From assembly GCF_944380975.1 (NCBI RefSeq), contig NZ_CALWJK010000011.1, forward strand, positions 1 to 47,143: a DNA stretch of 47,143 nt, given 5' to 3'. Positions 1,665-25,056 of the stretch are shown here, piece after piece (position 1 is the first letter of the stretch; the number at the start of each line of letters is the position of its first letter). The notes under the pieces were generated by a model. It worked only from the letters and a program-made list of their open reading frames with translations, ran no database searches and was not told where the DNA came from. Made by a program: the position numbers and the translations under genes. Origin of the DNA: an uncultured Agathobaculum sp. (GTDB lineage: Bacteria > Bacillota > Clostridia > Oscillospirales > Butyricicoccaceae).

Positions 1665-1676
1665 ATGTTCATGCCG
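1665..1676 (+). other. Junction of element 1 with sigG (attR of element 1, approximate)
   Basis: Sequence homologous to sigG can be followed leftwards only to the codons for Pro-Met (CCG ATG at 1674-1679). The codons before them read Cys-Met-Phe-Met instead of the Thr-Tyr-Ala-Val expected in SigG. The crossover therefore lies close to 1670-1674. Its exact dinucleotide cannot be set without the other end of the element. Confidence 0.65.
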
Positions 1677-2231
1677 ATGATTATTGGGGAAATCCGACGG
1701 TATCTGCGCGATAACAGCGCGCTGCGGGTATCGCGCAGTCTCCGGGATACGGCTTATAAAGCGTTGCAGGCCAAGGAAGCGTTTGTGCGTGAGCATCAGC
1801 GCGAGCCGGATATTGTGGAACTGGCAAAGCTGATGGATATGCCGAAAGAAGAAGTGGTACTGGCGCTCGATGCCATCCTTGATCCGGTATCCCTGTTTGA
1901 GCCGGTGTTTCACGATGGGACAGATACGGTCTGTGTGATGGATCAGGTAGGGGATAATAAAAATACCGATGATCAGTGGCTCGCCAGCATTGCATTGCGG
2001 GAGGCGATTGACAGCCTGAACGAGCGGGAAAAGCGCATTATCCGGCTGCGCTTTTTCGAGGGGCGCACTCAGATGGAGGTAGCTGATGAAATCCACATTT
2101 CGCAAAACGAAAGGACGCAAATTTCACAGCCACAGAGCAGTATAGAGAAAATGCACTTTTCAAGGCCACTATCTGCGTATCGAGGGGAATATGAGGTGGT
2201 TTACTACATAAACTGGCGGTTTCAAATATAA
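1671..2231 (+). CDS. sigG: Middle segment of split sigG (RNA polymerase sigma-G factor)
   Basis: Codons 1674-2105 encode a clear SigG middle region: PMIIGEIRRYLRDN, then RVSRSLRD, LDPVSLFEPVF and REKRIIRLRFFEGRTQMEV, ending at EIHISQ. These match regions 2.4 to 4.2 of Bacillus SigG as I remember it, including the PVSLFEP block that separates SigG from SigF. After EIHISQ the frame runs on through unrelated codons to a stop at 2229-2231. The first ~96 residues of SigG are missing, and no ribosome binding site precedes the Met codons at 1671. The recognition helix of region 4.2 (AQVSRLEK) is also missing and is found at 25000. The 144 codons here, 18 there and ~96 absent add up to about 258 residues, the normal length. 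The reading frame is intact, so I regard this as a split gene rather than a decayed one. As it stands it should not yield active sigma factor. Confidence 0.93.
   Translation: MPMIIGEIRRYLRDNSALRVSRSLRDTAYKALQAKEAFVREHQREPDIVELAKLMDMPKEEVVLALDAILDPVSLFEPVFHDGTDTVCVMDQVGDNKNTDDQWLASIALREAIDSLNEREKRIIRLRFFEGRTQMEVADEIHISQNERTQISQPQSSIEKMHFSRPLSAYRGEYEVVYYINWRFQI
2084..2104 (+). repeat. attL core of element 2, inside sigG
   Basis: This 21-base segment matches 24978-24998 at 18 of 21 positions; the core is GAAATCCAYATTTCRCA. It encodes EIHIS of SigG on the left and the tail of recombinase 2 plus EIHIS on the right. Dyad analysis of the rejoined ends places the crossover at CA, 2094-2095. To the right of it the sequence ceases to encode SigG. 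Confidence 0.88.
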
Positions 2232-2279
2232 CGAGGAAAGTGCGGTGGAATTGAACGCTCTGCAATCCGAGAAAAGGGA

Positions 2280-2318
2280 AATGTGCCCATTGGCAAGCAG
2301 CCGATGGGCACATTTTGT
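2280..2318. terminator. Bidirectional terminator at the left end of element 2
   Basis: A 14-bp stem with one G-T pair (AATGTGCCCATTGG at 2280-2293 with 2301-2314) and a 7-base loop is followed by T-rich sequence. On the other strand CCCTTTTC follows. It would stop transcripts running out of the interrupted sigG as well as those of the toxin-antitoxin operon. Confidence 0.7.
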
Positions 2319-2380
2319 TGTCTTATGAATTGCGGGGAAACCGTATCACAGCAGACCGCTTTTTTGTGTGGCGAGATGCC

Positions 2381-2686
2381 TTAAAACAACAGCGCCATGT
2401 AATCCTGCCGTCCGTCCAGCACGCGCGTGACCTCGATATGATCATCGTCCACCACACGGTAAAAGACGAGCTGCTTTGCCACCACCAAAAATCGCAGATC
2501 GGTCTCCACAGCAAATTTACGGCAGAGTTCCGTCCCCATATAGGGGTTATCCGCCAGCAGCATAATCGCGTCATATACACGCCGGGTCAGTTTTTTCGCA
2601 GCCGCCCCATTGACGAGCGTTTCCGAAATATAGCGTTCCGTTGCCTGCATATCGTCCAGCGCGGTTTTCTTAAATAACACCTTCAT
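2381..2686 (-). CDS. RelE/ParE-family toxin
   Basis: A 101-residue protein with the RelE/ParE fold pattern: N-terminal LFKKTALDDMQATERYI, a central helix, and the C-terminal strands TDLRFLVVAKQLVFYRVVDD and IEVTRVLDGRQDYMALLF. ParE members inhibit DNA gyrase, whereas RelE members cleave ribosome-bound mRNA. The sequence alone does not settle which applies; the RVLDGRQDY ending is common among ParE-like proteins. The start codon overlaps the antitoxin stop by four bases, the usual coupled arrangement with the antitoxin first. Sitting just inside the left end of the element, the pair may stabilise it, particularly while it is excised. Confidence 0.88.
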   Translation of the reverse strand: MKVLFKKTALDDMQATERYISETLVNGAAAKKLTRRVYDAIMLLADNPYMGTELCRKFAVETDLRFLVVAKQLVFYRVVDDDHIEVTRVLDGRQDYMALLF

Positions 2687-2985
2687 TCAGACAGCCCCAG
2701 CAGCTTGCGCGCATCGTCGGCAGAACACACTTCGGCGCAGTCGTCGCCTTTTTGCAGCTCTTTCATCAACCGCGACAGCGCCTTTGCCTTGATGATCTCG
2801 GCATTATCCTCGTTCACCGCGAACGGGAAACCACCCGCATTGATTGACTGCTGGAAAAACACGTTGACCGCGTCCGTCAGCGTCAGGCCGTTTTTCGCAT
2901 AAATCTGTTCCAGTTCTTCCCGGATTTCCGGGTTCATGCGGATACGGAACATATCCGTTTTGGCAGAAGAAACTACATTTCCCAT
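2683..2985 (-). CDS. RelB/DinJ-family antitoxin
   Basis: A 100-residue protein with a ribbon-helix-helix N-terminus (FRIRMNPEIREELEQIYAKN then LTLTDAVNVFFQQSI, roughly residues 13-51) characteristic of the RelB/DinJ family. These proteins bind their own promoter as dimers and wrap the cognate toxin with their C-terminal part. It is the first gene of a two-gene operon with the toxin, and its stop overlaps the toxin start. A well-formed promoter with flanking repeats lies directly upstream, in keeping with autoregulation. The ribosome binding site AAAGGAGGAAT is strong, as expected for an antitoxin made in excess. Confidence 0.88.
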   Translation of the reverse strand: MGNVVSSAKTDMFRIRMNPEIREELEQIYAKNGLTLTDAVNVFFQQSINAGGFPFAVNEDNAEIIKAKALSRLMKELQKGDDCAEVCSADDARKLLGLSE

Positions 2986-3007
2986 ACGTCATTCCTCCTT
3001 TGGATTT

Positions 3008-3036
3008 AGTATAACAAAAGATTGCCTATTTGTCAA
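3008..3036 (-). promoter_or_regulatory. Sigma-A promoter of the relB/parE operon
   Basis: Reading on the minus strand, a perfect -35 box TTGACA (3031-3036) is separated by 17 bases from TATACT (3008-3013), just upstream of the antitoxin start. Confidence 0.85.
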
Positions 3037-3039
3037 AAC

Positions 3040-3060
3040 TGTAGATACGTTGTAGCTACA
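3040..3060. promoter_or_regulatory. Probable operator repeats of the relB/parE promoter
   Basis: Two direct copies with an 11-base period, TGTAGATACG (3040-3049) and the palindrome TGTAGCTACA (3051-3060), lie just upstream of the -35 box. One helical turn of spacing fits ribbon-helix-helix dimers binding on one face. Assignment to RelB autoregulation is inference. Confidence 0.55.
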
Positions 3061-3254
3061 AAAATGCGTGCAATTGTTTTTGACCGCCTTATCTATTTGC
3101 ACTTTTTCACACTTTAAAAACTCCATCACATCAAAACTATGCCTCAACTATGCAATACAGTGGTTTTCTCAACCAATTTTCTATCCATCGATTTGCAGAA
3201 AAATTTTGCATTTTTGCAACGATCGGCCATTATCTTTTTACCATCTTCCAACAT

Positions 3255-3272
3255 GAGAATAAATCTATTCTC
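3255..3272 (+). promoter_or_regulatory. Inverted repeat directly before the helicase 1 ribosome binding site
   Basis: GAGAATA at 3255-3261 is repeated inverted at 3266-3272 with a 4-base gap, immediately followed by the ribosome binding site GAAGGAGG (3273-3280). It could be an operator or an RNA hairpin controlling translation. The 227-base stretch 3061-3287 is otherwise AT-rich, with no gene and no convincing promoter. Confidence 0.4.
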
Positions 3273-3287
3273 GAAGGAGGACTTTTT

Positions 3288-4556
3288 ATGGATATCAAAC
3301 GGGAAATCAAATGCGCATTGCATGATCTGGGCTTTGACAAGCCGCGCAAGCATCAGGTTGCACCGATCAAGTCATTGACCGACAAACAGGATACCATTGT
3401 CATTGCCGGGACATCTTCTGGTAAGACAGCCATTTATCAGACCGCCGGACTGGTGCTGCAAGGTTTGACTGTGGTGATTGAACCACTTCTGGCGCTGATC
3501 TATAACCAAGTGAAAGAATTGCAGCACAAGGGCATTTCCGCCGATTACATCGATTCCACACGCACCAAAACAGATGTAGACAAGATTCTCCGCAAAGCGA
3601 AGAAGGGAAAATTGTCTTTTCTCTATGTGACCCCGGAGCGGCTGCAAAATAAGAACTTCATCACCGAGATGCAACAAACCAACCTTACCTTGCTTGTGGT
3701 GGACGAGTGCCACTGCATCACCGAATGGGGCTACACCTTCCGGGACGCTTATCTGCACATCGGAGATTTTATTCAAACTCTGGCGCACAAACCAGTGATC
3801 TGTGCCTGTTCAGCAACAATCTTGGAGGGCGATGTCGAAACGATCGCCCAGTCCCTGCGTATGCGGCATCCTGCGGTGTTTCGCAGCGACCTCAAACGGA
3901 ACAACCTGATTTTGCTCAAAAAGGATGTCACTAGTTCAAAAAAGAATCTGGAAAAGCGTCTGGAATACTGCCTGAAAGCGCTCAAACATTGTATCCGAAA
4001 ACATGTGGGCGACGGATCGATCATAATCTACGCGTTGACAACTGCATATGTCGATGCCATCTACAACTTTCTGGAGGAATTCTATCCTGGACAGGTAACG
4101 CGATATCACGCGAAAATTCAGCCGGAAAAGCTGAAACGTCAGATGGAGATGGACTTCCTGCAAGGCAAGAAAAAGATCATGGTTGCAACTTCCGCGTTCA
4201 GCATGGGCATTGATGTGCCGGACATTGAACTCGTCATTCACTTCAATACGCCAATCAGCATGACCGACTACATCCAGCAGATCGGCCGTGCCGGACGTGA
4301 CGGCAGGAAAGCGCGCTGCATCCTGTTCTATGGCCAAAACGGTGATGATGCCAAGATTGTAAACAGCCTGCGCAAAAAGGCTGCGCAGACCTCGAAACAG
4401 GCCGCGAATACGATCAAAGCGCATTATAAGCAAATGCAGGACTTCCTGTCCGATACCAGTTGCATGCGCAACGCCGTCTTGCGCTATCAGGGGCAAAACG
4501 AGCAGACCATTTGCAAATGCTGCACCAATTGCGCCAGAGAGAGAAAGGGGTACTGA
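3288..4556 (+). CDS. RecQ-like superfamily 2 DNA helicase 1
   Basis: A 422-residue ATP-dependent helicase. It has Walker A GTSSGKT (residues 41-47), a DECH box (139-142), the SAT motif (175-177) and motif VI QIGRAGRDGR (331-340), in the order of RecQ proteins. The C-terminus ends in a cysteine cluster (four Cys at about 409-415), as in the RecQ zinc-binding region. It is shorter than cellular RecQ (about 600 residues) and lacks an HRDC domain. I chose the ATG at 3288 because GAAGGAGG lies seven bases upstream; a longer open frame back to 3150 has no such site. The next gene follows within three bases, so it is probably co-transcribed with the possible replication protein. A second, clearly different RecQ-like helicase lies at the far end of the element. 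Confidence 0.88.
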   Translation: MDIKREIKCALHDLGFDKPRKHQVAPIKSLTDKQDTIVIAGTSSGKTAIYQTAGLVLQGLTVVIEPLLALIYNQVKELQHKGISADYIDSTRTKTDVDKILRKAKKGKLSFLYVTPERLQNKNFITEMQQTNLTLLVVDECHCITEWGYTFRDAYLHIGDFIQTLAHKPVICACSATILEGDVETIAQSLRMRHPAVFRSDLKRNNLILLKKDVTSSKKNLEKRLEYCLKALKHCIRKHVGDGSIIIYALTTAYVDAIYNFLEEFYPGQVTRYHAKIQPEKLKRQMEMDFLQGKKKIMVATSAFSMGIDVPDIELVIHFNTPISMTDYIQQIGRAGRDGRKARCILFYGQNGDDAKIVNSLRKKAAQTSKQAANTIKAHYKQMQDFLSDTSCMRNAVLRYQGQNEQTICKCCTNCARERKGY

Positions 4557-4558
4557 AC

Positions 4559-5539
4559 ATGGAACGCAAAGATGGAATCCATACATTTTCGCTGAAAATC
4601 CGAAGCAGCTATTCGGAAATCCAGAATATCCGCGTACAGAATGCCTGTATCCGCGGCAAATGCGACCGTTTTTCGCTCAATCAGAATTTTTGTATTGCGG
4701 AGTATAAGGGCAAGGGCGTCGAAATTTTGCTGCATCAATCGCTGGCCTATCCCAGCTGGATCACGCTGATCGTCAACCCGTCCTCACTTTTGGATGGGGC
4801 GTATTCTCCGACCGGGCTGTTCCGCCCAACGAAACAGACGATGAAGCAGCTGAAAGCACGCCTGCGGTCTATTCTGGATGAGATCGGGATAGATGCGAAT
4901 CTCAAGGTGTTCCGATTGGCGCGCTGCGACCAAACGCGCGACCGTTATTTTAACCATGCAAGCGAAGTCGCACTTTGGCTTGGGATATTTCAAAAATCGT
5001 GGCTCATACCGCGCTATACGGTCGTTCCGTTCCCAAAAGATTCGGAATCCGACGGAAAGTGGAAGGATGCAAATCAGCATGCATGGACGGTCGCAAACAA
5101 GAGCTGTGTGTTCTCGGTGTATGACAAAGCCTATGAGCTGAAAAAACGCCACAAAGTCAAAATCAAAGCGCATATCCTGCGGTTCGAGCTGCGGTTGTCC
5201 CGAAAGATCATCCGAAAGATATGCCATGAAACCGCATGGGATAAGCAGCTGCTGGAATTGCATGAAAAACAAGATGCACAGCTGGACAAATTCCTGCACC
5301 GGCTGCATCTGCCCGAAAACACGCGACTTGTTACACTTACGCAGGCTTTGGACATCATCAACGCTTCGCGCTTTCGGGAAAAGACCAAGAAAAAGCTGCG
5401 CCGAATCGTGAAAAAAGCGAACGGCTGCGAATCACTCGCAGCCGTCCGGAAGAAAACCAAAATCAAAAAGTCAGAGTTTATCACAATGTTGGAGAAATTT
5501 GAGACCTTAGGCATTTGCCCGATACCTACTATTGGATAA
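4559..5539 (+). CDS. Possible replication initiation protein
   Basis: A 326-residue protein starting at 4559 with AAAGGGG upstream and only two bases after the helicase stop, so the two are likely one transcript. The central part resembles replication initiation factors of small plasmids and ICEs: a basic stretch, then VFSVYDKAYELKKR followed by ILRFELRLSRK (about residues 180-225). This recalls the YDK and acidic-strand motifs of rolling-circle Rep proteins. I cannot place a full catalytic His-hydrophobic-His motif, so the assignment is tentative. The C-terminal third is highly basic (KKKLRRIVKKANG and similar), fitting a nucleic-acid-binding protein. A short C-terminal motif (EKFETLGICPIP) recurs in the next gene. 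Confidence 0.6.
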   Translation: MERKDGIHTFSLKIRSSYSEIQNIRVQNACIRGKCDRFSLNQNFCIAEYKGKGVEILLHQSLAYPSWITLIVNPSSLLDGAYSPTGLFRPTKQTMKQLKARLRSILDEIGIDANLKVFRLARCDQTRDRYFNHASEVALWLGIFQKSWLIPRYTVVPFPKDSESDGKWKDANQHAWTVANKSCVFSVYDKAYELKKRHKVKIKAHILRFELRLSRKIIRKICHETAWDKQLLELHEKQDAQLDKFLHRLHLPENTRLVTLTQALDIINASRFREKTKKKLRRIVKKANGCESLAAVRKKTKIKKSEFITMLEKFETLGICPIPTIG

Positions 5540-5654
5540 TGGCATGAAACATCCATATCAGATTGCATCGGCCATGGTGCAATCATGATCAACGAATCAA
5601 TTATGACACGGTCTCACGGTACTCACGAAAAGGCTTCTTCTACCACGCTGCCCA

Positions 5655-6233
5655 ATGCTCATCATACCCTGCGATACCGATCTGACCATCTGCAAAGCCG
5701 AGCTGTCCATCCATATACAAGGCACATCTCACAAACACACCGAACGGTGTGCAGCAATCTGTCCTATCCATGGTGTAGGTACAGAAGAAATAGTAATACA
5801 ATCTGTGCCGTCTGGAAAAAAGCAGCGGAACAGATGCCCCCTCGACCTGCTTTGGCTGCTGATGCAGCAGAGCAAGCCGCGGATCTGCGAATTGGTGGGA
5901 AAGTGCTATACGGATCAACCGTATCTCCGCTGTCAGGGCGGACTTGCCGCCGTCGACGCGCACCGGAAATTTTCGCAGCCTGTAAAGGACGCGATGCGCA
6001 CCCTACTAACCAAAATGCGGCGCATGCAGACAGTCGATACGGCATTCTGCTCGATGGAAAAGCAGGGTATCCAGACCGACGGTCTGCTGCGCAAATTCGA
6101 CAAGCTCGGCATCAGCCACATCCCGCTGCGCAAAGGCTACGCGGAAAAGCGCATGCCCAGTCTATCTGAGATCCTACAGACGGTTGAAGACAAATCAATC
6201 ATTGTGGATCTGCACTTCGAGAAATGGAAATGA
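5655..6233 (+). CDS. Protein of unknown function downstream of the Rep-like gene
   Basis: A 192-residue open frame. The N-terminal half has several Cys and His (PCDTDLTICK, TERCAAICPIHG, CPLD), possibly metal-binding. The C-terminal half carries RKFDKLGISHIPLRKG, resembling the EKFETLGICPIP motif at the end of the preceding protein, which suggests a shared small domain. No good ribosome binding site precedes the ATG at 5655, and an overlapping frame (5585-6169) is also open, so the start is uncertain. I favour this frame because its C-terminal sequence looks like ordinary protein. Spacing to the neighbours (115 and 144 bases) is loose. No function can be assigned. Confidence 0.5.
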   Translation: MLIIPCDTDLTICKAELSIHIQGTSHKHTERCAAICPIHGVGTEEIVIQSVPSGKKQRNRCPLDLLWLLMQQSKPRICELVGKCYTDQPYLRCQGGLAAVDAHRKFSQPVKDAMRTLLTKMRRMQTVDTAFCSMEKQGIQTDGLLRKFDKLGISHIPLRKGYAEKRMPSLSEILQTVEDKSIIVDLHFEKWK

Positions 6234-6377
6234 GCCGTCTTTTGATCGTCAAAGCCACATTGCAGCCAGCGCTTTTTGAAATGAATTGCCTAACATAAGA
6301 ATAAGACGGCATGAAATACGATGCGCTACGTCCCATCTTGCCGCTAAATTCCAATTCACTTCAAGGAGTGTTATCTC

Positions 6378-6713
6378 ATGAAATACATCAGTTACAAAGA
6401 CATGAAAGATTTCTATACGATCGACGAGGTCTGCCGTCTGTTCGAGATGGACAAGGCCGATCTCCGGCACTATTCCGAAAAATATAACATTTCACCGCAG
6501 GAGGATCAGTACGGCAACTGGGGCTTCCGCAAAGTGCTAGTACGCAAACTGCACAATTATATCTACAAAGAGCAGCGAAACAGACCACACGGAGGCAAGA
6601 ACGCCCCTTGGGACAACAAGCCATACAAGCCCGACAAATCCCCTTGGGGCAACAAGCCCGGCAGTTCCCCTTGGGGTAATCGGTCTGAAAGGAAGTCCGG
6701 CCCATGGGCATGA
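6378..6713 (+). CDS. MerR-type helix-turn-helix protein with PWGN-rich tail
   Basis: A 111-residue protein with a strong ribosome binding site (AAGGAG) before the ATG. The N-terminal ~65 residues (YTIDEVCRLFEMDKADLRHYSEKYNI, then YGNWGFRKVLVRKLHNYI) form a MerR/excisionase-like winged helix predicted to bind DNA. The remaining ~45 residues are a low-complexity, proline- and glycine-rich tail with three tandem copies of a P-W-(D/G)-N unit and a final GPWA. The tail is probably disordered and could mediate protein contacts or self-association. It overlaps the next gene by ten bases. Control of element gene expression or excision is a reasonable guess from domain and location. Confidence 0.75.
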   Translation: MKYISYKDMKDFYTIDEVCRLFEMDKADLRHYSEKYNISPQEDQYGNWGFRKVLVRKLHNYIYKEQRNRPHGGKNAPWDNKPYKPDKSPWGNKPGSSPWGNRSERKSGPWA

Positions 6714-6874
6714 GTGAAATCCTGACGGTCAAAGAGGCCGCCGCGCAGCTCAAAACCACCCGTCAGCAGATTCGAAAAATGATCGCAAACGGAGAACTCC
6801 CGGCCGTTAAGGTCGGCCGGGAGTGGCGGATTCCACTGGAAAGCATCCGATTATTCTGGAAAGAGAACCTGTGA
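6704..6874 (+). CDS. Excisionase-family helix-turn-helix DNA-binding protein
   Basis: A 56-residue protein. ILTVKEAAAQLKTTRQQIRKMIANGELPAVKVGREWRIP is written here only by landmarks: the LTVKEAA start, the IANGELPA turn and the VGREWRIP wing, which together form the classic excisionase/helix_turn_helix type 17 domain. The start at 6704 (or in-frame Met at 6710) follows AAAGGAAG by eight bases and overlaps the end of the upstream gene. In phage and ICEs such proteins act as excisionases of tyrosine integrases or as small regulators. With a serine recombinase here, a regulatory role or an accessory excision factor are both possible. Confidence 0.8.
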   Translation: MGMSEILTVKEAAAQLKTTRQQIRKMIANGELPAVKVGREWRIPLESIRLFWKENL

Positions 6875-6888
6875 GAGAAAGGAGCCCC

Positions 6889-7803
6889 ATGTCGCTGACG
6901 ATCACCCTCTATTCCAACTACGGCGCGGGTGGGCCGTTCATTTTGGAACTGCCCGGACCGGACTGCCCGGAACCCGTATTGGACAAGCCTTGGCCGGATG
7001 TGACTTTTCCGGCCTGCAAGCTGATCCTGCATCGCGGCTGCGCCCCAGACGATTCGCTGCGACAGGTATGCCGCGGCACGCTGGAACAAGCCTGCTTCGA
7101 TGCGCCACAGTGTTCGGTCTACGACGGTCTGTGCGACCATCAGAACTTCCGCCGTGCACGACGAAAATGCCGCAAGGAGGACTATTTCGGCATCACCACG
7201 GACAACCAGATCCTGTGGCTGCAAACCAAGACCAACCAAATGCGCGAGCGGCTTCGAGTTATGGCACGCTGGACGCCGCCCGCAGACGCCAAATATCTGT
7301 ACATCGGCTACCCGGCTGATGCTGTCCCAGCCTATCGGCACACCTACCTGTTCGACACGGACGAGCGGCTGCTGCACTGGCGTTTGTGCAAGCTCGCCCC
7401 AGCCTGCACCGATTTCGCCTTTTTCAAGCTCTCGACGGCTTACGCACACCGGGCAAACGAACGCTTTGCGGCGGTCTATTACCCCGGCGACGAGATCACG
7501 CCCGCCGAACAGGCAGTCATCGACGAGCTGATGGCGTTCCCCAAGGACGACCCGCTCGCGTTCTACGACGCGTGCATGCGGCATGTTCCTTTTGAGGCGT
7601 ATGCCGTCGACCGGGAGGGCAACCGGACAGGCAGCTATTGGGGCACCGGCTTCCCGCTCGGCAAGGGATTGGCCGATTTCCTGAACCCTATTACTTGGCG
7701 CGAAATGAACCGCGTCGACGACGTCTTTGCATGGGAACGGTATTCCAGCGATATGGACGAGGAAAACGGTTTTGGAAATATCTATCAATCCATCATCGAA
7801 TGA
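6889..7803 (+). CDS. Conserved-looking protein of unknown function
   Basis: A 304-residue protein beginning MSLTITLYSNYGAGG. The start at 6889 follows GAAAGGAG by four bases and lies 14 bases after the excisionase-like gene, so the two are likely in one operon. I recognise no domain. It is rich in aromatic residues and carries a cysteine-containing middle (ACFDAPQCSVYDGLCDH, followed by RRKCRKEDYFG), hinting at metal binding or a disulfide. No signal peptide or membrane segment is seen, so it is probably cytoplasmic. The high GC and even reading frame argue that it is a functional gene. Confidence 0.75.
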   Translation: MSLTITLYSNYGAGGPFILELPGPDCPEPVLDKPWPDVTFPACKLILHRGCAPDDSLRQVCRGTLEQACFDAPQCSVYDGLCDHQNFRRARRKCRKEDYFGITTDNQILWLQTKTNQMRERLRVMARWTPPADAKYLYIGYPADAVPAYRHTYLFDTDERLLHWRLCKLAPACTDFAFFKLSTAYAHRANERFAAVYYPGDEITPAEQAVIDELMAFPKDDPLAFYDACMRHVPFEAYAVDREGNRTGSYWGTGFPLGKGLADFLNPITWREMNRVDDVFAWERYSSDMDEENGFGNIYQSIIE

Positions 7804-7860
7804 TAAGTATTATCTATGCGCTGCAATCGAATTGCATTTGAAGCCGGATTTATAAACAAA

Positions 7861-7897
7861 ACGAGAGGCTACCATTTAGGGTGAAGCCTCTCGTTCT
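7861..7897. terminator. Bidirectional terminator between convergent genes
   Basis: A 10-bp stem (ACGAGAGGCT at 7861-7870 with 7885-7894) and a 14-base loop lie between the plus-strand gene ending at 7803 and the minus-strand cell-wall cluster. On the minus strand it is followed by TTTTGTTT, on the plus strand by TCTGTT. Confidence 0.75.
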
Positions 7898-7928
7898 GTT
7901 GGCAATATAAAGCTTTGTATGATCGAAT

Positions 7929-8588
7929 TTATGCAGCTGTCTCTAAGCGCCACCGAGTATAATTACTAAGAATTTGTGCGACCTCAGCGCGGGTAATCGT
8001 ATCTTTCGGGTGGAATTTACCATCGTCACTGCCAGAAACAATATTAAGGTTATAAAGGCCTGCAATTTGTTCCCAGTACTCTGGGTTGATGTCCATATAA
8101 TCAGACCAGCCCGTATGCGCCAAAGTGATGCTACGTCCTCTGATATCTGATACCAAAGCCAATCCATAGGCAAAATCTTCTCGTGTGCAAGCTTGATCCG
8201 GATAAAAATACGCGCCGGTAAATTCAGGAGAATTTACCCACTTGATTCCGCCAAAAACTCCACCCATTACGGAGACGGCATTATAATACCATGCATTCGA
8301 AGGAACATCAGCGAAGTCCATCAGAACGCCGGTAGAAGTATCAGGTTGAACGACTTTAAAAAGAATTTGTGCGCATTCCGCTCTTGTAATGGTTGCATTA
8401 GGACGGAATGTTCCGTCTGGATAACCGTTCATATATCCAACATCTTCCACCATGGCAACTGCGTAATAAAACCAGTCATTTTCATTCACATCCGTAAAAG
8501 GTTTTGCATCTACAGCACCAGATTGTCCTATGCAGACACAAAGAGCAAAAATTATTGCAGTAAATCTTTTCAGTAGTTTTCTTTTCAT
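7929..8588 (-). CDS. Secreted protein made of three SLH domains
   Basis: A 219-residue protein. Residues 1-28 are a signal peptide (basic KRKLLKR, then a hydrophobic stretch ending near VDA). The rest is three S-layer homology domains, at about 31-85, 92-150 and 155-215, with typical motifs such as FTDVNENDWFYYAV, GYPDGTFRPNATITRAE and SGSDDGKFHPKDTITRAE. SLH domains anchor proteins to pyruvylated secondary cell-wall polymers. With nothing beyond the SLH domains, it may be a simple wall-coating protein or a spacer that competes for anchoring sites. AAAGGGAG precedes the start. It is the last gene of a minus-strand cluster of cell-envelope genes carried by the element, and its GC content is lower than that of the flanking element genes. 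Confidence 0.88.
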   Translation of the reverse strand: MKRKLLKRFTAIIFALCVCIGQSGAVDAKPFTDVNENDWFYYAVAMVEDVGYMNGYPDGTFRPNATITRAECAQILFKVVQPDTSTGVLMDFADVPSNAWYYNAVSVMGGVFGGIKWVNSPEFTGAYFYPDQACTREDFAYGLALVSDIRGRSITLAHTGWSDYMDINPEYWEQIAGLYNLNIVSGSDDGKFHPKDTITRAEVAQILSNYTRWRLETAA

Positions 8589-8683
8589 TGCATCGTGCTC
8601 CCTTTCTTACTAAAACAGTCAAACCATTGAATCATAGTAGGTTTCCTCGCCTTATCTGCACAAATAGAGCAGCTTTAGCATGA

Positions 8684-17076: not shown

Positions 17077-17089
17077 GGACACCCCTCGC

Positions 17090-17263
17090 TTAGTTGTATT
17101 TTGCGTTCAGCCAGCGCAGGCTATCCTGCAAGCTAATCTTGCCGTTCAAGACGGACAAGCACAGTGCGCGAATTTCCGGCGTGAGCTCAATCCCTTCCAT
17201 TCGGCAGGACATTGCAATGTTTTCCAACACTTCTGGCAGTACGATATTTGCCTCTGGCGACAT
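17090..17263 (-). CDS. VbhA-like antitoxin of the Fic toxin
   Basis: A 57-residue protein. The sequence NIAMSCRMEGIELTPE contains the inhibitory motif SxxxEG (Ser-Cys-Arg-Met-Glu-Gly), whose Glu is known in VbhA/FicA antitoxins to displace the ATP gamma-phosphate in the Fic active site. A second helix (SLQDSLRWLNAKY) completes the three-helix antitoxin. I chose the ATG at 17263 because GAGGATG lies nine bases upstream; an earlier ATG at 17296 lacks a site. It precedes the toxin gene by 13 bases. Confidence 0.85.
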   Translation of the reverse strand: MSPEANIVLPEVLENIAMSCRMEGIELTPEIRALCLSVLNGKISLQDSLRWLNAKYN

Positions 17264-17322
17264 ATTGATCACATCCTCATATGGGCAGTATACCATTTTT
17301 CCCGATAGAAAGGAAGATAAGA

Positions 17323-17898: not shown

Positions 17899-17904
17899 GA
17901 CGTT

Positions 17905-19746
17905 TTATGTTGTTTGCGAGTCCTTGCTTTGCAACGAGGCGGAAATAGAATCAAAAAGTTTGGTTCTCAGTTTGTCATATGCTTGATTAATAATTTTTCG
18001 CCGAATCGCACATTCAAGCAATAACGACCGTAGCTCTGTTTGGTCGATCGGATAAGGCACTTGGTGTTTTCCTTGTTTGCTTTTGGCATCCCACTGCGCA
18101 ATCCATTTTGCCATTGCATCGGTTTGCTCTATAATGTTAGATGCTGTACATAATTTTTCCCGAATGGCTGGAATATCCGGCTGATCGCTTTCCCATTGGC
18201 TCAAGTACCACTTGGTCAAATTATCCGGAATCCTGTCCAAAAGAGCAGAAGGAGGGGATACGGCTTTCGGAAATGTTTTGCAGAACGCATCGAATCCTTT
18301 GAAATGCAGTTGAGAACAGCTTCGGTAGCAGAACAGATCAGAGAACGAAAAGGGTAAGCAGGCTTGTAGGGTATTCCAACAGCGAAACGCAAAACTTGTG
18401 GGTTGCTCCTGCAAATTGTACTGCGTCAAGACTTTCTCCCAAACTTGCGCTTCCTGTTTTGAAAGGATCTCAAAGCCATGATAGAGAAGAAAATACAGTA
18501 GATTATCCTGAACTGCAGCGCGATCCATCTGCAATACATTGCATAGTCCGCATAGCAATATCAAGCGTTGGGTTCGCTGGGTTGAACGTGCCGGTTTTGC
18601 GCGATAAACATGGTGTGAAAAATCGGTACGAATTTGTTCCCAATCGATCTCTTTCTCTTTAAAAATTGCTCCGCTGCCCCAAACGCAAAGCACCAAAAAG
18701 CGAAATGCAGCATAGCGCTTCCACACCATTGCGGATTGAAGAATCTGCACAATGGCTTGTTCCTCTGGCGTTGTAATCACAGTGCGAGTTGTTTTCAGAT
18801 ATTCGCGCAATAACTGACTTACTTTTTTAATTTGATCCTCGGAAAAATGTTGCTTTGCATCGTATGAGTCATCCGCTTGGGCAGGGAAAGGGTGTGTCTG
18901 AACCCATGATTGGATAGCGTGAAAGGCGTCTATGCATGCCTTTCTCTGTTTTTCGTATTCTTGGAACGCTAATTCATCATCTTCGCTGTACTGTGCCGTA
19001 TAATTCCCTGATTCATTTTCGACAAGTGTATTTTCGTAGTATCTCAGCCTATATGTCATAAATACGATCGCATAAAAATCGAACACGTTTGCTTCATTTA
19101 GTGGAATGGTGGGGTCCCACTGCTTGAGAGTCGTGAGCAGCGCAGTGGCTTCTTGTCCATCGTCTGCATTATCGGTGCATTCGGTGAGCGTTTGATAGCA
19201 AGTGGTGTTGGAATTGTGGTGGGCTGAGCGATATTGGTAAATTTTGTTGAGTGTGTCTTCGAATGCAGCTTTATTTTGCTCATACTGCCTAGGACGAAGT
19301 CTCTTATATTCAGCCAGAGCTACACAGGCACTATTTTGATGCATTGCGCGCGGTTCCGTTCCGGCAAAACTGCGGTTCTTTTTCATCGCTTCATAGTTGA
19401 GCATATAATTTGCAAAATTTCGCGAAAAAAGGGTTCGCTGATCACACAGCAAAGCGAAAATCGCGTTGGGGACATTAAGACCATCGATTTGCTCAATTAT
19501 AAAGGCAGGTTTGTTAATCAATCTTTTTTGGTTTGTCACATTTCTCTGTGTTTCAAAAAAGCAATTATCCAGAAATGCCTTACACGCATGCTCAATTTTT
19601 GCGTTTGGTTTGGGTGGATTTGGTTCCTGATCAGAGATCGTTTTATCGGGGGCCGCTGTGTTCACTGGCGTTTTGCTACAAGGACGGAGTTTGAGGAAGA
19701 GCAAATTGCACTCATTGCTGTTGTTTGAATCTTGTTTATTGTCCAT
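17905..19746 (-). CDS. Large protein of unknown function
   Basis: A 613-residue protein, largely alpha-helical in appearance, with no signal peptide and no motif I recognise. The start at 19746 (MDNKQDSNN) follows AAAGGATG, while the longer frame to 19869 has no ribosome binding site. Residues 1-60 are polar and probably disordered (NNSNEC, PNPPKPNAK). A cysteine- and aromatic-rich helical region follows. It is divergent from the next unknown gene across a 326-base gap and converges on the resolvase, its stop lying seven bases from that gene's stop. With the 533-residue protein and the helicase it may form a functional module, for example replication or defence, but there is no direct evidence. 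Confidence 0.78.
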   Translation of the reverse strand: MDNKQDSNNSNECNLLFLKLRPCSKTPVNTAAPDKTISDQEPNPPKPNAKIEHACKAFLDNCFFETQRNVTNQKRLINKPAFIIEQIDGLNVPNAIFALLCDQRTLFSRNFANYMLNYEAMKKNRSFAGTEPRAMHQNSACVALAEYKRLRPRQYEQNKAAFEDTLNKIYQYRSAHHNSNTTCYQTLTECTDNADDGQEATALLTTLKQWDPTIPLNEANVFDFYAIVFMTYRLRYYENTLVENESGNYTAQYSEDDELAFQEYEKQRKACIDAFHAIQSWVQTHPFPAQADDSYDAKQHFSEDQIKKVSQLLREYLKTTRTVITTPEEQAIVQILQSAMVWKRYAAFRFLVLCVWGSGAIFKEKEIDWEQIRTDFSHHVYRAKPARSTQRTQRLILLCGLCNVLQMDRAAVQDNLLYFLLYHGFEILSKQEAQVWEKVLTQYNLQEQPTSFAFRCWNTLQACLPFSFSDLFCYRSCSQLHFKGFDAFCKTFPKAVSPPSALLDRIPDNLTKWYLSQWESDQPDIPAIREKLCTASNIIEQTDAMAKWIAQWDAKSKQGKHQVPYPIDQTELRSLLLECAIRRKIINQAYDKLRTKLFDSISASLQSKDSQTT

Positions 19747-20072
19747 TTTGCCACATCCTTTGCACTTTATTTGAGTTATAAACGGATAAAAAGTTTGATT
19801 TTTGGTAATTAATGAAACATTTTTTTGAAAAGACAGCTTGAAAGACAGCTGCCTGTGCGGATAGTACAATTATGATACCGGCCGGAAAAGATGATAAAGA
19901 GAGCCAGAAAAAAGAAGCGGGTCATCTCCGCGATACTTTTTTAGCATGGCCCGCTTCTCAGAGTAAAGGTTGCAATCCTGAGTTTATCACTGAAGGATTC
20001 AGCCTTATCTCGCCGTCAAACGGTGAGGGATCGTGTTCTTTGAAAAGTGAAAAGTGAGAAAGAGGAGTCCAA
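19747..20072. other. 326-base divergent intergenic region with a hairpin
   Basis: This region separates the two unknown genes. It contains AGAAGCGGG (19913-19921) and its complement at 19950-19958 with a 28-base loop, and two near copies of GAAAGACAGCT at about 19825-19850 that could be operator sites. The 61-codon frame at 19872-20057 runs straight through the hairpin and lacks a ribosome binding site, so I do not call it. I see no clear matched promoter pair. Confidence 0.4.
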
Positions 20073-21674
20073 ATGAGAAAAATGGTTCAATTTTTGGCAG
20101 AAATGTTTCAAAACGATTCATTTGCTCAATCTGTACCGGCTGAGCGAACCTGCGTGATTACGCAAGACAATGCCGGGGAAAAAGGATGGGCAGAAATGAC
20201 AGCCTGGGCAGAAACTGTCCGGGATCGTGTTTCCGATCACGCGGAATTCAAGGTGAAGGGCTGGACCATTAGAGATCACGGTGCTTGCTACTGCGAGCGC
20301 TTTCCTTGTCCGTTGCCGCATGTCGAGGTGCTGACGGAAAAGAATATTTGGCGCTATGCAGTGACGGCCTTTTTCGATGGAAAATCCGCGCTGCTTTCCT
20401 GCAAACGGCTATCCAACGGCGATTCGGTACCAGTTGCTGGTATCAATCTGGATAGCGGCGCAGCGTGGCTGACCAATGAGGTTCGGCGACTGTGTCTGCC
20501 AATGCTCTGTCGAAAAACCGTAGTGCTGGATCGACGTCCACAGATAAAAGCACGGCTGAAATCGAATAAAAGCTGGATATGGCCAATCGCCCCCGATGCC
20601 TTGGCAGAGGGAATCCGATCTGCGTTGGACATTGAAATTTTCCTGATGATACATACAACGGAAGCGGCCCTTAGCTCATTTATTCCAGATGAAGTAAAAC
20701 CTTTTTATTACGCAGAAGTTGCGTGCAGCGGAGTGGAGCAGACCGCCAAACTTCAAACTGAAACATTACGGAAGATGCTGGCGGCTTTTACATTCGCGCA
20801 GGGATTGGAAGCGCCGATTGGCATGGTGCCCGAGATTACGATGCAGGCACAGGGAGACCTGGAATTGCTGCAAAAGGTGAAATCGGTGCCCGTGTTGGCT
20901 CATGTTGACCAAGATGGAGTACAGAAAAAACTGACCACGCTCATGCAGTCGGCGCAAACCGATCTTGCAGTCAGCGGTCGGAGTCGATATCCGTTCGGCA
21001 CGGTACCGATACTGGTCGGCAGTGCGTTGCCAACAGACGCTGTGAGCTTGCGCCTTAATTGGCCCTCGTTCGAGAAGGTCGATTGGAAGTCTGTCCGTAT
21101 CCTTCAAGCCGCGGCGGCAAATATTTTGAGAAAGCCGTACCGACTGGCGCAGAATTTCATATCTGCCGTATACGCGATGCCGGTGGAAGATCGAATTTAT
21201 TCGGCATCACATTTTCTGACGGTTGCCGAGGCGCTGGATGAGATGTTGCTGAAAAACTCTGGATTTCAGGGGATCTTGCTGCAGCGTGCAGAGGGAATCG
21301 TCGAGAAAATCTGGGATGATGAAGATGCGCGCGACAAACGTTTTGCAACCGCGGCTGAGTTGCTGATGGATCGGCAGTTCACAGAAGCTTGGATTGCGCC
21401 GTCAGCGAAGGAAATGCTGGAGGACCATTTGGGGTTTCGATATCAGAAAAAAGATGGAAGTCGGTGGGTCGCGTTTGAACTGAATACTGCGTTCCCGCAG
21501 TTGATGGTTCATTTAGGGCTTCGCAAAACCGAATCGTCCGCATTCCGCGACTATCTGAAAAACCGGGGTTTTCTGGAAGTGTCAAGCCAAAAAGTGCGTG
21601 GACGGGATCAGACGACCTCATGCGCTCATGTGCTTTTCTGTGCCGAAATGCTCGGTGACCAAGCTGAATCATGA
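20073..21674 (+). CDS. Large protein of unknown function upstream of helicase 2
   Basis: A 533-residue protein with GAGGAG before the start, cytoplasmic in character. No domain is recognised with confidence. The C-terminal ~90 residues (WVAFELNTAFPQLMVHLGL, DYLKNRGFLEVSSQ, HVLFCAEML) look like a winged-helix module of the kind seen at the ends of some mobile-element primase or helicase proteins, but this is only an impression. The N-terminal part has two clustered Cys pairs (ACYCERFPCPLPH). It is followed 148 bases later by a RecQ-like helicase, and the two may act together on element DNA. Confidence 0.75.
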   Translation: MRKMVQFLAEMFQNDSFAQSVPAERTCVITQDNAGEKGWAEMTAWAETVRDRVSDHAEFKVKGWTIRDHGACYCERFPCPLPHVEVLTEKNIWRYAVTAFFDGKSALLSCKRLSNGDSVPVAGINLDSGAAWLTNEVRRLCLPMLCRKTVVLDRRPQIKARLKSNKSWIWPIAPDALAEGIRSALDIEIFLMIHTTEAALSSFIPDEVKPFYYAEVACSGVEQTAKLQTETLRKMLAAFTFAQGLEAPIGMVPEITMQAQGDLELLQKVKSVPVLAHVDQDGVQKKLTTLMQSAQTDLAVSGRSRYPFGTVPILVGSALPTDAVSLRLNWPSFEKVDWKSVRILQAAAANILRKPYRLAQNFISAVYAMPVEDRIYSASHFLTVAEALDEMLLKNSGFQGILLQRAEGIVEKIWDDEDARDKRFATAAELLMDRQFTEAWIAPSAKEMLEDHLGFRYQKKDGSRWVAFELNTAFPQLMVHLGLRKTESSAFRDYLKNRGFLEVSSQKVRGRDQTTSCAHVLFCAEMLGDQAES

Positions 21675-21821
21675 CGGAACAAGTTTATTTGCAGTAGCAA
21701 ATTAAATGCAAAAAAGTGCAGATAAAATTGCGTTTTTTGTAAAATTGCGCGGTATGGCGTCGGTTACATTGTTCCTGCCGTACCGCCGGTTTTGCATCAC
21801 TAATTTGGGGGAGATACTAAA
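21675..21821 (+). promoter_or_regulatory. Intergenic region before helicase 2
   Basis: This 147-base AT-rich region holds two direct copies of AAAATTGCG (around 21725-21750) and a GC-rich inverted stretch (TACCGCCGG), then GGGGGAGAT before the helicase start. It may contain a promoter or repeats bound by an element protein; I cannot define a matched promoter. Confidence 0.3.
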
Positions 21822-23087
21822 ATGAATAAAAATGAGGCACTTACACAACTGGGGCTCACCGCGTTACGTCCGGCACAAGAGCAGACGCTGCAGATGTTAG
21901 AACAAGGTCGTGATGTCCTCGCCATACTGGCGACAGGCAGCGGAAAATCGGCCATATTTCAGATGTTTGCACTCGAGCTTGCGTGCATGACGATTGTAAT
22001 CGAGCCGTTTCTGGCGTTGGAAATAGATCAGGTGCGGCAGCTGCAAGAGAAAGGAATTGCAGCCGCCATGCTGAACAGCACGCTTTCGAAGCAAAAACGT
22101 CAGGAGGTATTGTCGCAAATTGAAAACAATACCTTGCGGCTGCTTTATTTGACGCCAGAGATGCTGCAAAATCAGAACGTGCAGAAGGCGCTGAATCGTA
22201 CTCGAGTTAGCGGTGTAATGATTGACGAGGCGCACTGCATCGTAAAACAGGGACCGGGGTTTCGCGAGAATTACCTGCGCATCGCAGACTTTGTGAAGAC
22301 GCTGCGCGAGAAACCAGTAATCGGTGCGTTTACAGCCACGGCAACGAGATCGACAGAGAAGCAGATCATTAACAGGCTCAACATGGACGACCCATTTATC
22401 TATCGTGGCAGCGTAACCCGTGAAAATATCCGACTTTCAGCAATCGAGGTCGGACATGGGCTGAAGGGTCGGAAAAATGCTGCTGTAATCGAGCAGCGCA
22501 AGCGGGAAGAAATTTGTAGATTGCTGAAAAGAAAATCACAAAAGGGAAATAGTGTCATATATTGTAACACGGTTAAGCGCGTGAAGCAAATAAAGCGTTT
22601 CTTGAAAAAAGAGGGTTTTCCTGTAGAAAGCTTTTATGGTGCATGCAAAAACAAGGAAGAGAGGCTTCGGCGATTTGCATCCGGAGAGGTTCGTATCATG
22701 GTGGCGACGAACGCTTTTGGCCTTGGTGTGAACATTCCGAATGTGCGCCTTGTGATTCACCATTCTCCTTCGATCGGGCTGGATGAGTATGTGCAGGAGG
22801 CAGGACGCGCAGGCCGTAATGGTAAGCAGGCCGAGGCGGCTTTGCTATGGCACCCATACGATTTTACGATCAACCGAGGACTGCTTGAGAAGGCTAAGAT
22901 GGACTTGACCGGCCGAGAGCGCAAAGATCGTTTGGATGCGCTGGAGGCCCTGAAAAGGTATGCGCAGGATAAGGAACGCTGCCGATGGCGTATCATTCGA
23001 AAGTTTTTCGGGGAGAAAAAAGGGGATCGGTGTGAAGATCAGTGTGACAACTGTTATCATGCTGAAAACAAGATCGGGAAATTGTAA
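21822..23087 (+). CDS. RecQ-like superfamily 2 DNA helicase 2
   Basis: A 421-residue ATP-dependent helicase. It has Walker A ATGSGKS (37-43), a DEAH box (135-138), the TATAT motif III (about 171-175) and motif VI QEAGRAGRNGK, preceded by the ATNAFGLGVNIP segment. The C-terminus ends with CEDQCDNCYH, a RecQ-type zinc-binding end. Like helicase 1 it lacks an HRDC domain. The two helicases share layout and length but differ widely in sequence (DECH against DEAH, different flanks), so they are not recent duplicates. It lies 67 bases upstream of the small gene that precedes the element recombinase. Confidence 0.88.
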   Translation: MNKNEALTQLGLTALRPAQEQTLQMLEQGRDVLAILATGSGKSAIFQMFALELACMTIVIEPFLALEIDQVRQLQEKGIAAAMLNSTLSKQKRQEVLSQIENNTLRLLYLTPEMLQNQNVQKALNRTRVSGVMIDEAHCIVKQGPGFRENYLRIADFVKTLREKPVIGAFTATATRSTEKQIINRLNMDDPFIYRGSVTRENIRLSAIEVGHGLKGRKNAAVIEQRKREEICRLLKRKSQKGNSVIYCNTVKRVKQIKRFLKKEGFPVESFYGACKNKEERLRRFASGEVRIMVATNAFGLGVNIPNVRLVIHHSPSIGLDEYVQEAGRAGRNGKQAEAALLWHPYDFTINRGLLEKAKMDLTGRERKDRLDALEALKRYAQDKERCRWRIIRKFFGEKKGDRCEDQCDNCYHAENKIGKL

Positions 23088-23102
23088 GCCCAGTGGAAAG
23101 AG

Positions 23103-23132
23103 GTTTGTGTGTACCGCTAGATGTGCATACTA
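23103..23132 (+). promoter_or_regulatory. Possible sporulation-type promoter before the recombinase 2 operon
   Basis: GTTTG (23103-23107) and CATACTA (23126-23132) are 18 bases apart. CATACTA fits the -10 consensus of sigma-G and partly that of sigma-E, and GTTTG is one base off the sigma-G -35. The match is weak and could be chance. It lies 22 bases before the small gene start. Confidence 0.25.
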
Positions 23133-23154
23133 AACGAAAGGAGGAGGACATATC

Positions 23155-23334
23155 ATGAGAGAAGAGATTCGACGCGGCCAGATCTATCAGATTCTGGCGC
23201 TCAATGAAGAAATGTACAGAAATGGGTATGTTTCTCGCGAGGAACACGATTATGTGCGCCGTTTGCAGGCGAAAAAGTTGACGAATCTCCATGGACGCGA
23301 TACAATAGGAGCATTAAAAAACGATTTAACGTAA
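23155..23334 (+). CDS. 59-residue protein upstream of recombinase 2
   Basis: A small basic protein (MREEIRRGQIYQILALNEEMY, listed only in part) with a very strong ribosome binding site AAAGGAGGAGG seven bases upstream of the ATG. It ends 15 bases before the large serine recombinase gene, so the two are surely co-transcribed. It appears helical and charged, with no known domain seen. Its size, position and basic character make it a candidate recombination directionality factor or a regulator of the recombinase. Confidence 0.72.
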   Translation: MREEIRRGQIYQILALNEEMYRNGYVSREEHDYVRRLQAKKLTNLHGRDTIGALKNDLT

Positions 23335-23349
23335 ACCGAGGAGGTAGAG

Positions 23350-25056
23350 ATGGACGTCCGCAAACTGGACGACCTGTTGGCGCAGGGCCGCAGTATTTTC
23401 GAAATGAAGATTGCTGTGGCCTACTACGCCCGCGTGTCGACCGACAAAGACGAGCAGCTGAACAGTTTGGAAAATCAGCAGCGCTTCTATGAAGAATATA
23501 TCCGCAACAACCAAAATTGGACGTTTGCAGGCGGCTATGTAGACGAGGGTATTTCCGGTACTTCGGTTGCCAAACGTGAGCAGTTTTTGCAGATGATCGA
23601 AGATGCGGAGACCGGACAGTTTGATTTGATTGTCACAAAGGAGATCAGCCGATTTGCCCGGAACACACTGGACAGCATTCGATATACGCGTGAACTGCTT
23701 CGTCACGGTGTCGGCGTGTTTTTCCAAAATGACAATATCAATACCTTTGATAAAGATGCTGAACTGCGGCTGACTATCATGTCTTCCATTGCGCAGGACG
23801 AGGTGCGTAAACTGTCCGAACGCACGCGGTTTGGTTTCAAACGGGCGCAGGAAAACAGCGTGCTGCTGGGGCAGAACAATTTATTCGGCTATAATAAGGT
23901 GGATGGCAGACTCGAGATCGTAGAGCCTGAAGCGGAAATCGTTCGTGAGGTGTTTGAACGGTATGTTGCCGGCGAACTGGGGTTGCGCGCGATTGCTAAC
24001 GATCTGGACCGCCGGGGCATCACGGGAAAGCAGGGGAAAGCGATCACATATTCCACTCTATACGGAATGATCCGCAATCCCAAATACAAAGGATTTTATG
24101 CGGGACGCCGATATGCAACCCGGGATTATCGTGATGGCCGCAGCTATCGGCTGGACGCGAACAAGTGGATTGTACACGAGGACAAAAAGGTACCTGCGAT
24201 TGTCCCGGAACCGCTTTGGGAGGAGGCGAATCGCCTGCTGGCAGAGCGCGGCAAAACGATGAAACGGCATGCGCAGGCGTCACAGAACCGCTATGCTTAT
24301 AGCGGCAAGCTGATCTGTGCCAAACATGGCACGACGTTTCACCGGCATGTCTATAAGAGTAAGCGCAGGGGAGAGGTCGAGTGCTGGAACTGCAAGTTAT
24401 ACCGGCTCAAGGGGAAACAGAGCGGATGCAGTTCTCCGACGATTTATAGCAGTGAGTTGGATCGGGTGCTATCCCGCGTATTCGAGCGGGTGATTGACGA
24501 AAAGTCCGAAGCCATGCAGGAATATATACAGAATCTGAAAGATTTTGCAGAACAGCAGGATCACCGTGCGGAACTGGAACGGTTGACGCAGAAGATCGAT
24601 GCGCGGACGGCTAAAAAGGAAAAGTTGCTTGAGCTTGTGCTGGACGGTGCGCTCTCCAATGAGGAGTTCAAACGGCGCAATGAGCAGTATAATGAGCAGC
24701 TGGAGGAATTGGAACAGCAGCGCAATGCGTTGCAGAATGCCGGACAGGATTTGGCAGCGCGCATCAAGCGGGTGGAGAAGCTTTCGAAAACAATTGAGCA
24801 GCAGTGGAACGCGCATTGTGGTTTCCCCCGTGAGATGTCCAAGGCATTGGTCGATCATATTGTGGTAGATGCAGATGAAACCAATACCAAAATTTATCTG
24901 GATATCTGCTTGACCATGGGCAAGGAATATCGTGTGGAATATGAAAAGTCCAAAAGCCGAAATCAAGTCCTTTCGTTTGAGGAAATCCATATTTCACAGG
25001 CGCAGGTGTCCCGCTTGGAAAAGGGGGCGCTAGAGCATATTCGAAAGCGCATATGA
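23350..25056 (+). CDS. Large serine recombinase 2, reading into the sigG 3' end
   Basis: A 568-residue recombinase. Catalytic Ser30 lies in YYARVSTDKDEQ, and TKEISRFARNTLDSI carries the arginine motif. A recombinase domain spans about 180-290. A zinc ribbon follows (KLICAKHGTTFHRH, then ECWNCKLYRLKGKQSGC, about 320-365). A long coiled coil covers about 410-485. The start at 23350 follows GAGGAGG; the later Met19 has no site. The last codons run across the attachment site, so the final 18 residues (AQVSRLEKGALEHIRKRI) belong to SigG, and the gene uses the sigG stop codon. In the excised circle the frame would instead continue into 2096-2231 and gain about 42 different residues. It is the probable integrase and excisionase of the 22.9 kb element. 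Confidence 0.93.
   Translation: MDVRKLDDLLAQGRSIFEMKIAVAYYARVSTDKDEQLNSLENQQRFYEEYIRNNQNWTFAGGYVDEGISGTSVAKREQFLQMIEDAETGQFDLIVTKEISRFARNTLDSIRYTRELLRHGVGVFFQNDNINTFDKDAELRLTIMSSIAQDEVRKLSERTRFGFKRAQENSVLLGQNNLFGYNKVDGRLEIVEPEAEIVREVFERYVAGELGLRAIANDLDRRGITGKQGKAITYSTLYGMIRNPKYKGFYAGRRYATRDYRDGRSYRLDANKWIVHEDKKVPAIVPEPLWEEANRLLAERGKTMKRHAQASQNRYAYSGKLICAKHGTTFHRHVYKSKRRGEVECWNCKLYRLKGKQSGCSSPTIYSSELDRVLSRVFERVIDEKSEAMQEYIQNLKDFAEQQDHRAELERLTQKIDARTAKKEKLLELVLDGALSNEEFKRRNEQYNEQLEELEQQRNALQNAGQDLAARIKRVEKLSKTIEQQWNAHCGFPREMSKALVDHIVVDADETNTKIYLDICLTMGKEYRVEYEKSKSRNQVLSFEEIHISQAQVSRLEKGALEHIRKRI
24978..24998 (+). repeat. attR core of element 2
   Basis: This is the right-hand copy of the 21-base core, 18 of 21 identical to 2084-2104. 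The differences fall in wobble positions of the SigG codons (His CAC/CAT, Ser TCG/TCA). The predicted crossover dinucleotide is CA at 24988-24989. The inverted arm GTCCTTTCGTTT at 24967-24978 belongs to the element. Confidence 0.88.
25000..25056 (+). other. sigG: 3' segment of split sigG (recognition helix of region 4.2)
   Basis: These 18 codons and the stop encode AQVSRLEKGALEHIRKRI, the C-terminal end of SigG including the DNA-recognition helix of region 4.2 that reads the -35 element. In the present arrangement it is translated only as the tail of recombinase 2. Joined to the middle segment after ISQ, it restores the expected SigG ending. A strong terminator follows at once. Confidence 0.92.

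Follow-up and report, generated by a model that had tools for sequence, protein, structure and literature searches.

The closest described relatives of the locus reported here are DNA elements that interrupt sporulation genes. The sigK skin elements of Bacillus and Clostridioides difficile cut the gene of a sporulation sigma factor in frame, at a common core and with a serine recombinase, and all of these features recur below. In C. difficile a constitutive recombinase acts with a cell-specific recombination directionality factor (RDF), according to PMC5025042, which also describes sigG as the gene of the forespore factor. In Bacillus cereus, gerE is interrupted by gin, a non-phage element with serine recombinases (PMC5595907). 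Here we describe sigG of Agathobaculum, a genus placed in Butyricicoccaceae. Our window is the entire contig C11 (C11:1-47143; 47,143 nucleotides (nt)) of the Agathobaculum metagenome-assembled genome (MAG) G000 (2.34 Mb, 88 contigs, 91% complete). The sigG gene of this genome is in three pieces, cut at two sites with two different recombinases, and the first of these splits is conserved over the genus and recurs in other Clostridia with related large serine recombinases (LSRs). Searches of the open-access PubMed Central literature, preprints not covered, listed no paper describing sigG as split.

We recognized sigG with the profile TIGR02850 (spore_sigG), using a threshold of E<=1e-5 in the search for intact copies. 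The samples were 25 genomes of the genus (G000-G024), 51 genomes of the family outside the genus and 392 genomes of the class, 133 of which scored above the sigG cut-off. Loci matching the recombinase LSR1 of the window are mostly titled Agathobaculum or Butyricicoccus; we analysed the best 80 of 124 such relatives, 20 within the genus and 60 others at 44-54% identity.

The middle and C-terminal pieces of sigG lie in the window (Table 1). Residues 1 to about 96, the N-terminal third, are found outside it on contig C27, near an intact sigE, and the gene is therefore counted as cut twice. Joined, the three pieces encode 256 amino acids (aa) without a gap or internal stop, with 91% identity to the intact SigG of genome G017. 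The original prediction, made from the window alone, held that a 22.9-kb element splits sigG, and named an intact second copy elsewhere in the genome as what would refute this; no such copy was found at E<=1e-5 in the 91%-complete MAG. The genes sigE, sigF and sigK are whole in the same genome.

The cut at residue ~96 characterizes the genus. The N and C pieces are apart in 20 of the 25 genomes; of the others, G021 has only the N piece, G013 and G014 only the C piece, and G002 and G017 carry them joined. LSR1 stands directly before the C piece in 22/22 genus genomes that have this piece, the orthologues in the 21 genomes other than G000 being 77-95% identical, and G002, G017 and G021 contain distant LSR1 matches only (best E values of 1e-30 and 3e-29 in the joined G002 and G017). 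After joining, the N+C frame is open in all 20 genomes with both pieces. N loci include an amidohydrolase gene (labelled mtaD here; 20/20) and sigE (17/20), and C loci include pta (16/17) and an aminotransferase gene (11/17); the joined sigG of G002 and G017 likewise adjoins pta. The joint lies inside the conserved FSTYAVPMIIGEIRRYLRD stretch, and no phage genes were recognized beside this first cut. Named species with a split sigG include Agathobaculum desmolans, A. massiliense and Ruminococcus albus. The C piece of G019 (L084) has LRFFFFCSQMEVA in place of the LRFFEGRTQMEVA of its relatives, which may be a local error of assembly.

Substitution patterns point to purifying selection on both sigG pieces and on LSR1. 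Median ratios of non-synonymous to synonymous substitution (dN/dS) were 0.078 (N; finite in 208/210 pairs), 0.035 (C; 199/231) and 0.104 (LSR1; 222/231), with synonymous sites partly saturated; the figures for the sigG pieces span 21-22 species. At the common core, CCGATGA, the reading frames of N and C are continuous. About 27 nt after the N piece are conserved although the reading frame there is not, and the attachment site attR1 is conserved in 22 genus genomes, its pattern also occurring in other families. Across families, GAAA is found at one fixed offset after the N piece in 22/27 cases and TTTC before the C piece in 24/30, compared with 0.3 each in shuffles (these sets are 30 and 34 rows minus 3 and 4 that were further Agathobaculum rows or duplicates). 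Of 20 genomes, 18 have a reconstructed attP that is symmetric around one centre. A count by eye places the motifs TTTTC.AC and GGGGAAA 4 bp farther outward in attP than in attB, on both sides. In the A118 integrase the zinc-ribbon motif is shifted outward by 5 bp in attP relative to attB (PMC3783163), and by this analogy the 4-bp shift would be as expected in kind for serine integrases.

The arrangement of the pieces varies. Among pairs on the same contig, eight are direct with N first and 2.5-25 kb apart (G079, G083, G100, G102, G104, G105, G107 and G108), and G113 has inverted pieces 26 kb apart. Inverted pieces also occur in G005, a genome of one contig, where 757 kb separate them, and in G001 the pieces are direct and 112 kb apart, in an order that we read as placing a joined sigG on a 112-kb circle; joining would thus require a 757-kb inversion in G005 and the formation of this circle in G001. 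The DNA between pieces holds tRNA-Thr and tRNA-Trp at one locus (L165), and isochorismatase, NAMPT-like and major facilitator superfamily (MFS) genes in R. albus KH2T6. Losing such tRNA and metabolic genes from the spore line would be costly, which argues that any joining is reversible.

Beyond the genus, 47 of the 51 family genomes match sigG at E<=1e-113 and G051 is split; matches of this strength are absent from G030, G045 and G069. Sister genera of Agathobaculum carry a one-piece sigG. At 10 of 21 such loci, intact or almost so, sigE is no more than 1.5 kb away, and at 6 it is upstream on the same strand. Among the 60 LSR1 relatives outside the genus (from the best 80 of 124), a sigG C piece comes right after 13; 16 face the end of an N piece, 8 are 0.9-3.1 kb from a piece and 23 have no piece in the stretch examined. 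A search of 45 LSR1-family genomes, 41 of them outside the genus, found both pieces in at least 34; among the matches listed, nine had C only (one with a partial N) and two N only, and these misses are upper bounds. We looked more closely at 10 genomes of the class sample with middling scores, chosen by eye, and at 4 other genomes. The pieces are separate in G123, G157, G338, G398, G494 and G051, with an LSR1-like gene adjoining the C piece in G494 and G051; sigG ends at position 238 in G044, is intact in G345, begins at 56 in G393 and is ambiguous in G406, where the piece is at a contig end; no sigG pieces were found in G136, G269 and G327. In another of these 14 (G465:C33:8289-9048) there is only a change of frame, located precisely at residue ~96, the recombination point, where the two sigG parts abut; it is either a footprint or a frameshift.

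Several candidate leads were rejected. Extra intact sigG copies in G099 and G110 are not captured joined states, that of G099 having no blastn match to its pieces and that of G110 being 79.9% identical to its C piece. A single origin of the sigG-adjacent LSRs was not shown; the tree needs 7 changes for an LSR beside C and 9 for an LSR beside N. Viral contigs yielded 15 LSR1 relatives, at most 45% identical over a part, and 11 matches to the attP 17-mer, judged near chance by an estimate made without a control. One locus (L185), with an LSR1 relative and a sigG C piece, comes from a bin labelled as the archaeon Candidatus Methanovirga and is probably mis-binned.

At the second interruption, the original prediction described a sigG middle piece ending at EIHISQ, a second EIHISQ directly before the C-terminal piece and scarless rejoining. 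Both copies are exactly where they were placed, and the capacity for scarless rejoining is borne out by a filled and an empty allele of this same second site in the near-identical genomes G004 and G005: the joined flanks of G004 match the empty allele of G005 at 411/414 bases. This pair excludes a chance origin of the duplicated core. Recombinase genes adjoin the window junctions (LSR1 and LSR2), and the uninterrupted alleles sought in relatives exist within the genus (G017 is whole, and G002 is joined at the first site). The split itself therefore stood, but the 22.9-kb element (element 2) is not its main feature, being a sporadic insertion with variable cargo in 6/25 genus genomes. Nor is the conserved cut at EIHISQ; it is the one at residue ~96, with halves that, unlike those around a skin island, are sometimes far apart and on either strand.

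Element 2 is a younger, mobile second interruption of sigG, and a discrete island whose excision would restore the gene at the second site. Its cargo by Pfam comprises two RecQ-like helicases, RelB, two SLH proteins, an amidase, zinc ribbons, an amidoligase-like protein, GATase, Fic and LSR2, with a Rep_trans-like match below the Pfam cut-off. LSR2 has Resolvase, Recombinase and zinc-ribbon domains over the Pfam cut-offs and orthologues of 76-95% identity in 5 further genus genomes. It is carried by the genomes whose match to the sigG model stops at 236-243 (G000, G002, G004, G012, G020 and G024), and it reads into the end of sigG in 5 of these 6, the exception being G002. The G018 match also stops early, but at a contig end. 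Two genomes from outside the genus (G044:C52:8038-8748 and G051:C66:68229-68678) likewise have a sigG match that stops close to the second site, at position 238-239.

A small open reading frame (ORF) of 62 aa precedes LSR1 at 22/22 genus loci, with a pN/pS of 0.38 overall and 0.26 in its N half. It has no family match in Pfam, PHROGs or NCBIfam, and an RYxNG ORF lies ahead of 12 of the 60 distant LSRs. Within it, a sigmaA-type promoter would serve LSR1 alone; TTGCC and TATACT are invariant in 19/19 small ORFs of equal length. Before the ORF we found a sigmaF-like motif, G..T[AG]-N15-GGGCAnAATA, at 16 of 22 loci in strict form and 21 of 22 in loose form (shuffles, 0.0 and 0.6). PMC3789822 describes C. 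difficile sigmaF promoters as marked by a conserved G before the -10. Two yardsticks for the motif were discarded: promoters of small acid-soluble spore protein (SASP) genes look sigmaG-like and unlike it, and the spoIIR promoter is unusable in a genus with no spoIIR match. Positions 1-86 of the window differ from relatives and contain a hairpin, GCCGGACTGGCTGTCCGGC, at the contig start, which may reflect a rearrangement or an assembly edge.

We propose, with a probability of roughly 0.6, that site-specific recombination maintains the split of sigG and that reversible joining in the forespore is the work of a domesticated recombinase. Such enzymes catalyse attP x attB by default, and LSR1 on its own would therefore hold sigG in the split state. 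Once the upstream small ORF is expressed in the forespore from its sigmaF-like promoter, its product would turn LSR1 to attL x attR, and sigG would be joined by inversion, excision or chromosome fission, depending on the positions of the pieces. Germination would probably be followed by re-splitting: with a spore genome that is passed on, and intervening DNA that can hold tRNA and metabolic genes, the joining would have to be reversible. In G000, element 2 would also have to excise via LSR2 before a whole SigG could be made. More tentative, and a little short of an even chance, is the wider proposal that an ancient domesticated recombinase of Clostridia assembles sigG at each sporulation by reversibly rearranging the inherited chromosome, through an inversion of as much as 757 kb or a fission that yields a large circle with sigE and sigG, and splits the gene again after germination, forming a developmental checkpoint.

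A number of results weigh against forespore joining. The symmetry of attP is modest, at a mean of 15.1/28 pairs compared with a mean of 12.5 and a maximum of 16 in one-site shuffles (best over centres), and the attP predicted for the joined state is present in 0/25 genus assemblies, its pattern fitting 18 of the 20 reconstructed sites. No LSR1-like gene was found near either piece in the split genomes G113, G123, G157, G338 and G398, as far as their contigs reach, and adjacency to an LSR is thus not universal. The 62-aa ORF is a candidate RDF by its position, the sigmaF-like patterns were chosen after seeing the sequences, their -35 is unlike those of sigG and SASP promoters, and G000, with 86 nt of contig ahead of the ORF, showed no such motif. 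Finally, spoIIR (TIGR02837) has no match in 25/25 genus genomes, though Bacillus subtilis matched, and PMC3533761 tables R. albus 7 as a non-spore-former without spoIIR and others, so that some split-sigG species may not sporulate.

These last two observations would also be expected if the lineages no longer sporulated and sigG were a remnant broken by mobile elements, as would the interruption by element 2 and that of an sspA-type gene; the low dN/dS of the pieces (0.035-0.078 over 21-22 species), the whole sigE, sigF and sigK of G000 and the open joined frame in 20/20 genomes make such decay quite unlikely. LSR1 might instead join and split sigG at a low rate during growth, with only the switched subpopulation finishing spores and no confinement to the forespore. 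The conserved sigmaA-type promoter of LSR1 and the opposite-strand halves of G005 and G113, which would invert, agree with phase variation of this kind, but the predicted joined form is seen in none of the 25 genus assemblies and the small ORF has a separate sigmaF-like promoter, and we regard it as unlikely. It is very unlikely that N and C are translated separately and work together as a split sigma factor, with LSR1 a relic: both are open and constrained, the C piece has an in-frame ATG at the core and the two are unlinked in most assemblies, but LSR1 itself is constrained, conservation extends to the non-coding arms of the sites, the joint interrupts the conserved stretch noted above and sister genera have sigG in one piece. 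Trans-splicing via an intron, which pieces at distant loci might suggest, has next to no probability, as neither the window nor the N locus has an Rfam intron at its gathering score and the sole match is a tRNA.

A forespore gene for an alpha/beta SASP is also split, in 10/25 genus genomes, and both parts were found in G001, G010, G016 and G022. In G022 a further serine recombinase is found in the 4 kb that separate the parts, and in G001 next to the C part. In G024 (G024:C151:3672-3824; L232) the SASP match stops at 51/59 and unrelated residues follow, perhaps another insertion.

Table 1 Features of the split sigG and associated loci (window coordinates unless a genome and contig are named)
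Feature	Position	Strand	Remarks
62-aa ORF (RYLNG...)	87..275	+	Overlaps LSR1 start; candidate RDF, by position and conservation
sigmaA-type promoter	207..235	+	TTGCCC-N17-TATACT, within small ORF; would serve LSR1 alone; post hoc motif
LSR1, large serine recombinase, 458 aa	272..1648	+	Pfam Resolvase, Recombinase and Zn_ribbon_recom over cut-offs
attR1	1652..1692	+	LSR1-side arm TTTTCGAC at 1652; core ATGCCGATGA at 1671-1680; sigG-side arm GGGGAAA at 1686
sigG middle piece	1677..2105	+	Met of PMIIGEI to EIHISQ, in frame; TIGR02850 positions 90-243 at C11:1665-2126, E 1.2e-68
Second-site core, first copy	2088..2105	+	GAAATCCACATTTCGCAA
Element 2, integrative, 22.9 kb	2106..24981		Pfam cargo; ends 87-93% identical to ~9.3-kb version in G020
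LSR2 ORF	23350..25056	+	Runs in frame into sigG end
Second-site core, second copy	24982..24999	+	GAAATCCATATTTCACAG
sigG C-terminal piece	25000..25056	+	18 codons plus stop, AQVSRLEKGALEHIRKRI; TIGR02850 222-254 at C11:24955-25053
sigG N-terminal piece	G000:C27:25486-25764, outside window	-	TIGR02850 positions 2-94; attL1 follows
SASP loci	G022:C26:7859-12095 (L316:2836-7108); G010:C57:7707-24168; G001:C2:3187228-3207114; G000:C4:45727-45843		

The rearrangements of sigK and gerE serve the mother cell, where loss of DNA is harmless, whereas SigG acts in the future spore. If sigG is joined in the forespore, an inherited chromosome would be altered and restored in every sporulation cycle, over hundreds of kilobases in some species. 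A conserved recombinase with its sites offers a natural set for studying how such enzymes are steered, and the named split species make the joining hypothesis testable; split sigG genes may also cause errors in annotation and in the prediction of spore formation. Compared with skin and gin, both sigG sites show an in-frame split with a common core, and in the window a recombinase gene lies at the end of the intervening DNA (LSR1 and LSR2), but the target by TIGR02850 is sigG and not a mother-cell gene such as sigK or gerE. Unlike skin, the system thus affects another sigma factor in another cell, extends genus-wide and into other families, and often has unlinked or inverted halves. Element 2 resembles gin, although gin is one 28.6-kb island and gerE acts in the mother cell. 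Among excision recombinases, LSR1 resembles the model of XisF (E 5.3e-42), which acts on the fdxN element of heterocyst-forming cyanobacteria, but at 144 bits against a cut-off of 375 it is not a member, and the fdxN rearrangement occurs in a terminal cell type. The active lysogeny of the Listeria comK prophage is similar to what we propose, in that an interrupted gene would be joined reversibly in a genome that is passed on, but the system here is without a phage and its reversal is inferred.

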